Virus record (IMG/VR): IMGVR_UViG_3300032322_001991
Span: 1 to 59,932 of that record
Length of the DNA: 59,932 bases
Reading direction: 5' to 3' (one strand)
From: a virus
The notes below the pieces were generated by a model. The model did no database searches, was not told where the DNA came from, and saw only the letters and a list, made by a program, of their open reading frames with translations. The stretch's first letter is position 1, and every line of letters starts with the position of its first letter. Of the stretch, positions 2,612-6,299 are shown piece by piece. Position numbers and translations under genes: made by a program.

Positions 2612-2871
2612 TGGAAACGATCAAGAAGCTCTGGGATTACGCGTGCATCACGTGGCTGTCCCTGACGCCCAAGGCGCAGATCACGGTCCTCGTGGCCTTG
2701 TTCATCATGTTCTTCGCAGGCGCCGTGCTGGCCCAGGGCAAGACCTGGCAAGTGCTGGAGCACGCGTGTGACAAGTCCGGCGCCGTGAACACGCTGGTCA
2801 TCGCCGTGGCCGAGCCCGGCTTCGTGCAGATCAGCTGGGATAACGCCCACGTCTGCGGCAAGGCGTCGTGA
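2611..2871 (+). CDS. small single-pass membrane protein
   Basis: Encodes 86 residues. Its ATG overlaps the previous stop (TGATG) and AAGGGAG lies seven bases upstream. One hydrophobic segment at about residues 24-41 is followed by a short domain with two Cys (about residues 52 and 81) that could form a disulfide outside the membrane. Its GTGA overlap with the terminase start suggests translational coupling. Function is unknown. Confidence 0.65.
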   Translation: METIKKLWDYACITWLSLTPKAQITVLVALFIMFFAGAVLAQGKTWQVLEHACDKSGAVNTLVIAVAEPGFVQISWDNAHVCGKAS

Positions 2872-5800
2872 CCGACCTGGCGTCACTGTCCACAGAGGAG
2901 AAGCTGGAACTTCTTCAGCTTCTGGAGATCCGCGACCGTCGCCAGCGCGAGAACATGCTGGCGTCGTACAAGCCGTACGCCAAGCAGAAGGAATTCCACA
3001 ACGCAGGCGCCACGTACCGTGAACGCCTGTTCATGGCTGCTAATCAGTGCTCAGGCCCGTGGACGTGGGTTGAAACGCCGGGCTCCAAGGCCCTGTCCGT
3101 AGATACGTTTTTCGAGCCAGGTGCACGTGTTCAAGCGTGGGACGGTGAATCTCGATGTGTCGCTCCAGTGCGGCACGGATATCTGAAGGGCATTGAGAAA
3201 GCGTATCGTCTGGTCCTGGAGACGGGAGAGTTCTTTGACGTGACGGCCAGTCACCAAGTGCTGACCGAACAAGGCTGGCTTTCGGTTTCCCGGATAGTGT
3301 CGCTTTCAAGTGGTCTGCGTTGCTGGCAAACAACCGAAGATTTTCTGGCCAGTTGTGTTGCGGGTGGCCGTCTACATGATCCACGACTTCCGCTGGATCC
3401 AGGTAGCGACCCAGCACGACTTCTAGAACGAGTCGGTGCTCGGGAACGTAGCCTGTGCTTCTCGCTTGAGGATGCAGAGGCGCGTACACGCTCACATACC
3501 AGCCTTTTGTCAGACAACGTCCTCCACCCCAACGCTGGCTGTGACCCGCGCCAGATCGAGGCCCTGTGCGCGCAGTTCGCAGGCCCAGCGATGAGCAGTA
3601 GCGTTCTACCGTTGACCGGTGAACACCAAGCCTTCTTGCAACTTGCTCGTGTGTCTCACCTTCTTCCTCAATCAGGCGACGAACCTCGTCTCCTTTCTCT
3701 ACCAGCAGACGTCCTGGTAGGAATTGTGGCTGGATGTTTCTCCTCTGAAGAAAAGACTGCACTACGTGAGTTTTCAGACCGAGTCGCTCGGCTATCTCTT
3801 GACGTGTCAGGCCCTGGGAGTTCCATTGAAGAACTTGGTCAAGATGCGGCTCGACTAGGGACGTTCTACCCATTTGATGGTCCTCGGCTGGTTGGTGGGA
3901 GGACGATCACTGCCGTCGTCCCGATTGGTTACCAGCCGATTCTAGACTGTCATGTGGACAGGGTCAATTGCTATTGGGCAGGCGGGGTGGTGCATCACAA
4001 CAGCGGCAAGACGCTATCTGCTGCATACGAGATCGCGATCCACGCCACCGGCCGCTACCCAGACTGGTGGCAAGGCCGTCGGTTCCATCGCCCGGTCAGC
4101 ATCCTCGTCGGCTCGGAGTCGGGCGAACTGACCCGCAAGGGCCTGCAGCGCCTGATCGTGGGCTCGCCCCAGAAGCGGGAAGAGTGGGGCACTGGTGCGA
4201 TTCCTAAGGAGTGCCTGGGCAACACGACGATGAAGCCCGGCGTGCCTGACGCGCTGGCCAGCGTGACTGTCAAGAACGAGTACGGCGGAGAGTCCGTCAT
4301 CCAGTTCAACAGTTATGACCAAGGGCGCATGCAGCACGTTGATAGCCGGGTGCTGACCCCCACCGGCTGGAAACGAATCGGAGACATTCAGCCGGGCGAC
4401 GAAGTCATCACTGTCGACGGTTCAGCGACGCGTGTGCTCGGCGTATTCCCTCACGGCGTCAAAGACCTGTACGAACTCACGTTTGATTCGGGGATCAAAA
4501 CCCTAGCTGGTGCCGAGCACCTGTGGCGTGTTGGAGAGCGCACCCGCGGCCCGTGGAGAACGGTCGAGACGGCCGAGCTCATCCATCGCTACGGGGACAC
4601 TGGCGAAAGGATCAACAGCAACGACCAGGTGTCGATTCCGCACGTCGCTCCCGTTCAGTTCCCAGCCAAGCCAGTTCCGCTTGACCCGTACTTGGTCGGA
4701 GCGCTTTTGGGGGACGGTTGCGTTCGCCAGAATCGCGTGCGTTTTACGTCAAAAGATGAGCAGGTCGTGGCAGAGGTCGCAGCCGGAGCGTTTAAATCTG
4801 GCGCTCAAATTGCTCGATGGGGCGATATTCAATATGGGTTCAGGGACTCTCAAGGCATTCGAGAAGCCTTAAAAGACCTGGGCCTGGCGGACCTTGGCGC
4901 GCTGGAGAAACGAGTTCCTCACGACTACTTGTGGAACGAGCCTGAGGTTCGGTTTGCAGTTCTTCAAGGGCTGATGGACACGGACGGCTCAGTGTCTGTT
5001 AAGGGCACCATGTCGTTTTCTACGACCTCGCGTGGCCTGGCCGAGGACGTGTCCTTCCTTGTGCGGTCGTTCGGCGGAAAAGCCATTTTGCGCAGCAAGG
5101 GGCAAAAGAACCGCAACAACGAGCTGTTCCTCGTGTCCATTCGGATGCCGGGGCCTCCACCGTTCAGGCTTCAGAGAAAGCTAGACCGCTGCATAAGGCC
5201 GGAATCAGAAACGCACCGGCATCTTCTCCGGACAATCAAGAGGGTTGAGCCTGGCGAGGCGGTTTGCATTGCAGTTGAGCACCCGTCTCATCTGTACGTC
5301 ACCGATGATTTCATCGTCACCCACAACACCAAGTGGCAGGCGGACACGATCGATATCGTTGCGATGGACGAAGAGCCTCCGATGGATATCTACACGGAGG
5401 CGCTGACCCGGACCAACGCGACGGGCGGTATCGTCTTCGTCACGTTCACCCCGCTGCTGGGCATGTCCCAGGTGGTCAAGCGCTACCTGACGGAGAAGCC
5501 CGAGGGTACGACCGTCATCCGCATGACGATCGACGATGCGGAGCACTACACCCCCGAGGAGCGTGCGCGGATCATCGCCGCCTACCCTGAGCACGAGCGG
5601 GAGGCCCGGACGAAGGGCATCCCGATGCTTGGCAGCGGCGCGGTGTTCCCCGTGGCCGAGTCCGCGATCAGCGTGGCACCGTTCGAGATCCCCGCCCATT
5701 GGGCACGGATCAACGGGATCGACTTCGGCTGGGACCACCCGACTGGCTTCGTCTGCATGGCCCACGACAGGGACACGGACACGGTCTACGTGTACGACGC

Positions 5801-6299
5801 CTGGAAGCTGAAGCAGACCCCCGTCATGACTCAGGCCGGGATGGTCGTAGGCAAGGGGTACCAGAACATACCCTGGGCCTGGCCGCATGACGGCCTCCAG
5901 CATGACAAGGGGTCTGGCGAAGTCCTGAAGGACCAGTACCAGAAGTTCGGCATGAACATGCTCTCGGAGAGGGCCCAGTTCGAGAACCGTCCTGACGGGA
6001 AGCCGGGTGGCAACAGCCTTGAGGCTGGTGTATCGATGATGCTGGAGAGAATGCAAACACGCAGACTACGCGTGTTTTCCAACCTGGAGGACTGGTTCTC
6101 GGAGTTCCGGCTGTACCACCGGAAGGAAGGGATCATCGTCAAGGAGGACGACGACATTCTGTCCGCGACGCGCTACGGGATCATGATGCTGCGCAAGGCG
6201 AAGACCTTGCTGGAGATGGAACCGAGCCGTGGCACTTTCAACCGACCCGCTGCGAACCTGCCTGTTTTCCAGGTGTTCAACGCGGACTGTGCGTACTGA
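2868..6299 (+). CDS. terL: terminase large subunit precursor with two inteins
   Basis: DNA-packaging motor protein with an N-terminal ATPase and a C-terminal RNase H-like nuclease. The 1143-residue precursor would mature to 492 residues after removal of inteins at residues 61-378 and 488-820, a normal TerL length. Joining the exteins restores Walker A as AANQSGKT, the YDQGR-TKWQ segment, and Walker B as IVAMDEEPP. The nuclease half has GIDFGWDHPTG (first acidic residue), a WPHDG segment and a late EDDDILSATRYG segment. The start is GTG and overlaps the upstream stop. Both inteins interrupt the ATPase core, so splicing is required for activity. Intein 1 also contains an antisense gene. Confidence 0.95.
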   Translation: MTDLASLSTEEKLELLQLLEIRDRRQRENMLASYKPYAKQKEFHNAGATYRERLFMAANQCSGPWTWVETPGSKALSVDTFFEPGARVQAWDGESRCVAPVRHGYLKGIEKAYRLVLETGEFFDVTASHQVLTEQGWLSVSRIVSLSSGLRCWQTTEDFLASCVAGGRLHDPRLPLDPGSDPARLLERVGARERSLCFSLEDAEARTRSHTSLLSDNVLHPNAGCDPRQIEALCAQFAGPAMSSSVLPLTGEHQAFLQLARVSHLLPQSGDEPRLLSLPADVLVGIVAGCFSSEEKTALREFSDRVARLSLDVSGPGSSIEELGQDAARLGTFYPFDGPRLVGGRTITAVVPIGYQPILDCHVDRVNCYWAGGVVHHNSGKTLSAAYEIAIHATGRYPDWWQGRRFHRPVSILVGSESGELTRKGLQRLIVGSPQKREEWGTGAIPKECLGNTTMKPGVPDALASVTVKNEYGGESVIQFNSYDQGRMQHVDSRVLTPTGWKRIGDIQPGDEVITVDGSATRVLGVFPHGVKDLYELTFDSGIKTLAGAEHLWRVGERTRGPWRTVETAELIHRYGDTGERINSNDQVSIPHVAPVQFPAKPVPLDPYLVGALLGDGCVRQNRVRFTSKDEQVVAEVAAGAFKSGAQIARWGDIQYGFRDSQGIREALKDLGLADLGALEKRVPHDYLWNEPEVRFAVLQGLMDTDGSVSVKGTMSFSTTSRGLAEDVSFLVRSFGGKAILRSKGQKNRNNELFLVSIRMPGPPPFRLQRKLDRCIRPESETHRHLLRTIKRVEPGEAVCIAVEHPSHLYVTDDFIVTHNTKWQADTIDIVAMDEEPPMDIYTEALTRTNATGGIVFVTFTPLLGMSQVVKRYLTEKPEGTTVIRMTIDDAEHYTPEERARIIAAYPEHEREARTKGIPMLGSGAVFPVAESAISVAPFEIPAHWARINGIDFGWDHPTGFVCMAHDRDTDTVYVYDAWKLKQTPVMTQAGMVVGKGYQNIPWAWPHDGLQHDKGSGEVLKDQYQKFGMNMLSERAQFENRPDGKPGGNSLEAGVSMMLERMQTRRLRVFSNLEDWFSEFRLYHRKEGIIVKEDDDILSATRYGIMMLRKAKTLLEMEPSRGTFNRPAANLPVFQVFNADCAY
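3040..3873 (-). CDS. HTH-HTH-HNH homing endonuclease encoded antisense inside TerL intein 1
   Basis: Encodes 277 residues from the ATG at 3873, with GAGG (3882-3885 on the plus strand) eight bases upstream and a near-consensus promoter at 3939-3967. Two helix-turn-helix units lie at about residues 21-47 and 72-98. An HNH nuclease core at about 125-196 includes EHRLVLE (145-151), VVDHVDG (163-169), N174, PENL (176-179) and SNADH (184-188). This resembles HNH proteins of phages that combine DNA-recognition modules with a cleavage domain. The recognisable protein spans only the intein region between splicing blocks B and F. Residues after about 200 are the reverse of blocks A and B and look unconserved. 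Its TAG stop lies eight bases outside the intein, in extein DNA. Expected role: cutting intein-free terL alleles. Confidence 0.85.
   Translation of the reverse strand: MGRTSLVEPHLDQVLQWNSQGLTRQEIAERLGLKTHVVQSFLQRRNIQPQFLPGRLLVEKGDEVRRLIEEEGETHEQVARRLGVHRSTVERYCSSLGLRTARTGPRSGAGHSQRWGGGRCLTKGWYVSVYAPLHPQARSTGYVPEHRLVLEVVLGRYLDPAEVVDHVDGHPQHNWPENLRLFASNADHLKATLSGKPKASLVRSALGDWPSRQRTLPSPGPDDTLSQCPSDIRAALERHIEIHRPTLEHVHLARKTYLRTGPWSPAFQPTSTGLSTD
3048..4001 (+). mobile_element. TerL intein 1 (class 1) at Walker A
   Basis: A 318-residue intein (TerL residues 61-378). Cys61 starts block A. Block B contains T-A-S-H. Block F is DCHVDRVNCYWAGGVV, and the C-terminal His-His-Asn precedes Ser379. Excision rejoins ANQ to SGKT, the ATP-binding P-loop. 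The part between blocks B and F (about TerL residues 145-335) contains no endonuclease motif in this frame and reads as featureless Ser/Arg/Leu-rich linker. The opposite strand of this same part encodes a complete HNH endonuclease. Confidence 0.9.
3939..3967 (-). promoter_or_regulatory. antisense promoter for the intein-nested HNH gene
   Basis: On the minus strand, TTGACC (-35, 3962-3967) and TAGAAT (-10, 3939-3944) are separated by 17 bases, with five of six matches to sigma70 consensus at each box. The expected start is about 60 bases upstream of the HNH ATG at 3873. The element lies inside the plus-strand codons for intein block F, so one sequence serves protein splicing on one strand and promoter function on the other. 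Its spacer contains GACAGTC, seen in other promoter candidates here. Confidence 0.65.
4329..5327 (+). mobile_element. TerL intein 2 (class 3) with in-frame LAGLIDADG endonuclease
   Basis: A 333-residue intein (TerL residues 488-820) between YDQGR and TKWQ, just before Walker B. The first residue is Met, not Cys or Ser. Block A then reads DSRVLTPTGW. Class 3 inteins splice through a Trp-Cys-Thr set, and all three positions are visible: Trp in GAEHLW of block B, Cys in AVCIAVEH of block F, and Thr821 after the terminal His-Asn. Two LAGLIDADG-type motifs are in frame: LVGALLGDG and LQGLMDTDG. It appears to be a full, possibly active element. Confidence 0.9.

Follow-up and report, generated by a model that had tools for sequence, protein, structure and literature searches.

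The large terminase gene (terL) of the viral DNA analysed here (the window: 59,932 nucleotides, positions 1 to 59,932 of IMG/VR virus record IMGVR_UViG_3300032322_001991) very probably carries an ambisense mobile intein, a reading to which a probability of about 0.9 was assigned. The plus strand would encode a self-splicing intein in the Walker A motif of TerL, and the minus strand a free helix-turn-helix (HTH)-HNH homing endonuclease with its own promoter and ribosome binding site. Direct support comes from the structures of the two genes, selection on both frames, a phase and geometry that are conserved, the existence of empty sites, movement from one terminase family to another and decay of the nuclease in copies that keep their splicing residues. 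The name 'ambisense inteins' is proposed for such elements.

The terL gene and intein 1

The features of the terL region are listed below; a slash marks an intein junction.

2868-6299, plus strand: TerL open reading frame, 1143 aa, large terminase subunit with two inteins
2868-3047, plus strand: TerL N-extein, stopping directly before the Walker A motif (...AANQ/)
3048-4001, plus strand: intein 1 (318 aa), with a class 1-type splicing domain in two parts on either side of a middle that is probably antisense-imposed filler
3048-3317, plus strand: N-terminal Hint part of intein 1 (blocks A and B), overlapped by the C-terminal part of the antisense gene
3858-4001, plus strand: C-terminal Hint part of intein 1 (blocks F and G), containing the promoter-like site, Shine-Dalgarno sequence and start codon of the antisense gene
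4002-4328, plus strand: TerL extein segment, from SGKT (Walker A) up to intein 2; Terminase_6N
4329-5327, plus strand: intein 2, TerL residues 488-820, with an in-frame LAGLIDADG enzyme, starting with Met and not Cys
3040-3873, minus strand: predicted antisense homing endonuclease gene, 277 aa, ATG at 3873-3871, stop codon TGA at 3042-3040
3589-3852, minus strand: two HTH units, residues about 8-44 and 61-95 (Pfam HTH_23 and others), predicted DNA-recognition part
3292-3519, minus strand: HNH catalytic core, residues about 119-194
3882-3885, minus strand: Shine-Dalgarno sequence GAGG, 8 nt before the antisense ATG
3939-3967, minus strand: sigma-70-like promoter TTGACC-17-TAGAAT (10/12), 65 nt before the antisense ATG

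Intein 1 extends from Cys61 to Asn378 of TerL, and its junctions, AANQ/CSGPWT...VVHHN/SGKT, are located inside the Walker A motif. The residues of a class 1 intein were all present (C1, H69 of block B, H317-N318 of block G and S+1), and C1, H69, H317 and N318 were invariant across the family alignments. A profile of intein 1 matched the DnaB intein 4o1r with an E value of 1.4e-20, and Foldseek with the structural model of intein 1 found 6frg at E 3.5e-5. Pfam Intein_splicing was matched in 22 of 36 relatives, not in intein 1 of the window. AlphaFold2 (AF2) predicted a confident Hint fold, similar to those of the DnaB and RecA inteins, for residues 1-90 and 271-318, with pLDDT values mostly of 91-97 for residues 1-80 and of 85 for residues 81-90. 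The middle of the intein was modelled with low confidence, as is expected of filler set by the opposite strand, and showed some helices with pLDDT values of about 60-75.

Searches with Pfam and PHROG profiles found no endonuclease family in the sense frame of intein 1. Judged by its sequence, intein 1 is a class 1-type intein with predicted splicing activity and without an endonuclease in its own frame. The original prediction of such an intein at TerL residues 61-378 was thereby confirmed, no Pfam endonuclease being matched, and the element is for the same reason not a large intein with an in-frame endonuclease. A split intein or fractured gene does not describe it either; in the 97 and 113 loci presented below, one sense open reading frame runs uninterrupted across the intein. 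A group I intron was rejected on the grounds that seven relatives gave no Rfam match and that the sense frame retains the intein blocks.

The antisense HTH-HNH gene

Two HTH units and an HNH core had been predicted on the opposite strand, and both were recovered in profile searches, in which the antisense protein matched PHROG 20891 (E 4e-21), PHROG 10730 (E 6e-20) and HNH_3 (1e-5). The invariant residues of the HNH core are E145, H146, R147, H166, N174, N178, N185 and H188. The AF2 model of the antisense protein had a mean pLDDT of 83.8; the HTH and HNH parts were both confident, the HTH part mostly above 90. Foldseek with the HNH model gave no significant match, I-HmuI (1u3e) being fifth at E 1.1, and the HNH assignment is therefore carried by the sequence profiles. 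Homologues of the antisense protein, which the original prediction had called for, proved to be many, and full-length relatives with 51-58% identity were found at the same terL site in other virus contigs.

The gene was initially drawn from 3040 to 3967. The stretch 3040-3873 is indeed the antisense gene, whereas 3967 approximately marks where the promoter-like site begins. The gene is not confined to the interval between blocks B and F, where it had been placed. Its C-terminal third shares DNA with the N-terminal splicing domain, and both proteins are consequently constrained there.

Antisense open runs in nine other long genes of the window were used as a chance control. They were no longer than 186 aa in the phase used by the antisense gene; the longest were found elsewhere, up to 908 aa in a different phase. 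This control, together with the sense-stop permutation test described below, rejected a chance open reading frame in high-GC DNA, and the antisense gene is not a chance product. A defence system was also considered and rejected, as PADLOC gave only weak matches, two of them labelled 'homing endonuclease'.

The two-strand layout in related loci

An alignment of nine antisense proteins was searched against IMG/VR (80 loci) and GTDB (6 loci). Among 99 loci retrieved by HNH similarity and scored with an HNH profile, 97 had the HNH gene antisense inside a long sense open reading frame or intein, in one phase, and the two exceptions (L017 and L018) were distant free-standing HNH genes. A search with the sense N-terminal Hint part alone gave 113 loci, and an antisense HNH gene in the same phase was present in 113/113, a figure that may not extend to more distant relatives because the Hint retrieval partly re-uses DNA encoding the HNH C-terminus. 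The codon phase was constant, codon position 1 being opposite codon position 1. Nearly all of the HNH-profile-scored loci showed ...HN/[SCT]GK[ST] after the intein, nearly always as a Walker A site. Cys1 was conserved in 111 and the terminal His-Asn in all of 112 non-redundant inteins. On the other strand, the HNH catalytic residues were invariant in 42 aligned antisense proteins, 39 of which matched HNH_3, and HNH profiles matched the antisense side at up to E 1e-110. Stop codons in the antisense frame of relatives had been named as evidence that would count against the gene; the frame was open in nearly all homologues, and the exceptions were recognisable decayed copies.

The host genes belonged to the Terminase_6 and Terminase_3 families, with one SNF2-like helicase. 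In the latter (L089, 2640-4910) an intein of the same ambisense family was located in the Walker A motif of the helicase and not of a terminase. Cultured carriers were one strain of Pseudoalteromonas phage PHS3 and eight Pectobacterium/Dickeya phages. These were found by HNH and profile searches; BLAST of intein 1 gave almost no matches in cultured phages, which is explained by the divergence of the splicing domain. Among the sampled bacterial species genomes the element was present only in the two centre genomes (1/395 and 1/369). It is thus mainly an element of phages and seldom carried by chromosomes. Existing annotation misses the element. In the GenBank record of PHS3 (L016, KX912252) the terL coding sequence starts after the intein and the HNH gene is listed as an opposite-strand neighbour, and in that of Pectobacterium phage Sabo (L015, PQ008974) TerL is 'hypothetical' and the HNH gene unlisted.

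Selection on both strands

The stop test was performed on 47 non-redundant HNH cores of 130 codons each, with synonymous codons permuted within each gene. No stop was found in the sense frame of the 47 cores, against 148 expected; the other two opposite frames contained 282 and 225. Substitution rates at sense codon positions 1, 2 and 3 were 0.129, 0.059 and 0.367 in the C-terminal Hint part and 0.117, 0.309 and 0.086 in the HNH core, where the maximum is shifted to the antisense third position. This flip of periodicity was observed in 31/31 disjoint pairs, of which about 26 are truly distinct (26/26), the pairs not being fully independent. Amino acid identity over the HNH core was 0.86 in the antisense frame versus 0.64 in the sense frame, and was higher in the antisense frame in 26/26 distinct pairs; related sequences in these selection counts are non-independent observations. 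Where the HNH C-terminus overlaps the N-terminal Hint part, substitution was slow at all three positions, as expected of doubly used DNA. As judged from these substitution patterns, both strands are under selection, with purifying selection on the antisense codons. The conservation per strand raised in the original prediction thus came out in favour of the antisense frame.

Two other explanations bear on these results. The antisense gene could be a decayed relic, homing being inactive and the open frames remnants or the product of GC-driven chance. Some copies are clearly decayed (L116, L122, L182 and L186), and high-GC genomes do yield long chance antisense frames. This explanation is nevertheless regarded as very unlikely: the antisense codons are under purifying selection in all 26 distinct pairs, the catalytic residues are invariant, and the chance runs of the window were longest in another phase and did not exceed 186 aa in the phase used. 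The second explanation, that the middle of intein 1 is a functional domain of the sense protein and the antisense HNH resemblance is secondary, could draw on the helices in the AF2 model (pLDDT about 60-75). It is hardly credible: sense amino acids change fastest there (position 2 rate 0.31), locus L122 has lost about 97 middle residues and kept its splicing residues, and the matches to HNH profiles, with E values down to 1e-110, lie on the antisense side.

Mobility, empty sites and decay

A prophage of Enterobacter cloacae carries the element, and the same terL without it was found in Escherichia phage PHB10 and in a prophage of E. coli ET729, with C-extein identities to the Enterobacter carrier of 92.7% and 84%, respectively. 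When the Enterobacter flanks were joined, a gapless alignment of 90-92% identity was obtained around an exact 1008-nt insertion at FG/SGKT. A near-identical intein-free allele of the terL of the window itself was searched for and not found, its empty relatives being about 58% identical. Loci L110 and L111 shared 70% identity in the splicing domain and 58% in the HNH core, compared to 16% in TerL. In pairs such as L050/L056, 37% of third positions differed in the extein versus about 2% in the N-terminal splicing part. The HNH gene was decayed, with the splicing residues kept, by a stop in L116 (3508-3512) and by deletions in L122/L123, L182 and L186. Loss of the HNH gene with retained splicing fits the prediction of the homing cycle (PMC1654191). 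Mobility is thus supported, at the level of sequence comparison, by precise empty sites, by transfer between unrelated terminases and by HNH decay with persisting splicing residues. The decayed loci resemble natural mini-inteins in the making. In a further pair, L081 and L085, the C-exteins are identical over 459 codons and the N-exteins differ at about 18% of bases, a pattern suggestive of recombination, with its breakpoint close to the intein.

In HK97-type phages, HNH proteins adjoining terminase genes take part in packaging, a role that need not exclude homing (PMC10448857). The antisense protein could accordingly be a packaging accessory factor, as HK97 gp74, which adjoins the terminase, and be found in terL only incidentally, with no homing. 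Such a role on its own is considered highly improbable. Every close relative examined had the gene within an intein, TerL retains the splicing residues where the HNH gene is broken or truncated, intein-free terminases lack the HNH gene, and one host gene is an SNF2-like helicase.

Expression signals of the antisense gene

The Shine-Dalgarno sequence GAGG with a gap of 8 bases was correctly predicted, and similar sequences precede most of the homologous antisense starts. A single sigma-70-like match was found within positions 2700-4500, namely the one on the minus strand before the antisense ATG. Within the 140 nt preceding the antisense start, the promoter consensus was matched at 9/12 or better in 20 of 41 loci, whereas 5.0 such loci were expected from shuffled sequences and the opposite strand gave 6; the evidence is consensus matching, and about half of the loci have no such match. 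The distance from the antisense start to the intein end was 125-131 nt in most loci (range 107-149), which means that the promoter, ribosome binding site and start codon all fall within the DNA that encodes blocks F and G. The predicted signals are consistent with, though not proof of, independent expression of the antisense gene.

Proposed mechanism

From the ambisense layout we infer actual splicing, expression of the antisense gene with its own timing, and DNA cleavage at a specific site. Intein 1 would be removed from TerL after translation. The antisense enzyme would cut or nick an intein-free terL at the conserved P-loop, the sequence of which is conserved in DNA across hosts, and the whole element would be copied in during repair from an intein-bearing allele. 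Because of splicing, the host gene would suffer no harm from the insertion. About residues 90-270, the middle of the intein, may be filler that has its sequence dictated by the nuclease gene and need only lack stop codons. With the two functions on opposite strands, production of the endonuclease can be independent of terL, and probably earlier. terL is a late gene, and a host-type promoter could let the antisense gene act before it. Considered as a family, these inteins are likely to be a widespread composite selfish element, with splicing and homing encoded on opposite strands in a fixed codon phase, decoupled timing and repeated invasion of the Walker A sites of unrelated phage ATPases.

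Relation to known systems

The nearest large inteins are the TerL inteins of mycobacteriophages with in-frame LAGLIDADG enzymes (PMC5050341). As in these large inteins, the target is the ATPase site of TerL, Walker A being among the known sites, and a mobile element combines a splicing domain with a homing enzyme (PMC5050341). In large inteins, however, the endonuclease, LAGLIDADG or HNH, is in frame between blocks B and F, whereas the present element has it as a separate gene on the opposite strand. Homing genes in opposite orientations are known from the Didymium group I introns S956-1 and S956-2 (PMC13182076), and an antisense gene for a His-Cys box homing endonuclease is present in a group I intron of Porphyra, in the P1 extension (PMC2585584). 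These introns are likewise mobile, self-removing elements with a homing gene on the complementary strand. Unlike the present element, they splice at the RNA level and have no second protein frame to keep open; here a single stretch of DNA would have to be translated from both strands. In 2009 Dassa et al. reportedly described split inteins whose two halves flank a free-standing endonuclease gene. These share with the present element an endonuclease that is a protein separate from the splicing domain, but their host gene is broken in two, whereas here the nuclease gene overlaps one continuous open reading frame made up of host gene and intein. Free-standing phage HNH endonucleases (Thibault gp148, PHROG 20891/7545) have the same HTH-HNH architecture and a homologous core, but stand alone, outside inteins.

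Full-text searches of 5.4 million open papers found none that describes an intein with its endonuclease gene in antisense orientation. An antisense endonuclease gene is therefore provisionally regarded as new for inteins and as already known for group I introns. The original claim that no class with this layout had been described holds for inteins and fails overall, since group I introns with antisense homing genes exist (PMC13182076, PMC2585584). Splitting the two parts onto opposite strands changes the time at which the enzyme can be made and the way in which each part can be lost. To our knowledge, inteins and their homing enzymes have hitherto been understood as one fused protein from one transcript. 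The family also provides a large natural set of opposite-strand overlapping protein pairs in one phase, in which splicing and catalytic residues test how two proteins share DNA.

Intein 2 and other features of terL

Intein 2 may be of class 3 type, given the Trp that follows its block B His and the Cys in its block F. It is absent from L001 and L002, the flanks of which are about 98% identical, and is thus a recent arrival. TerL was present as two open reading frames, an ATPase part and a nuclease part, in many relatives of the phage of the window (L005, L031, L036, L203, L208, L214, L216-L218 and L222). A gap of about 20 to 700 nt, close to the motif TFTPLxG, separated the two parts, and no Rfam intron was found. 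A further Hint/intein domain was detected in one of 58 scanned C-exteins (A9 members), so that at least one more TerL has two inteins.
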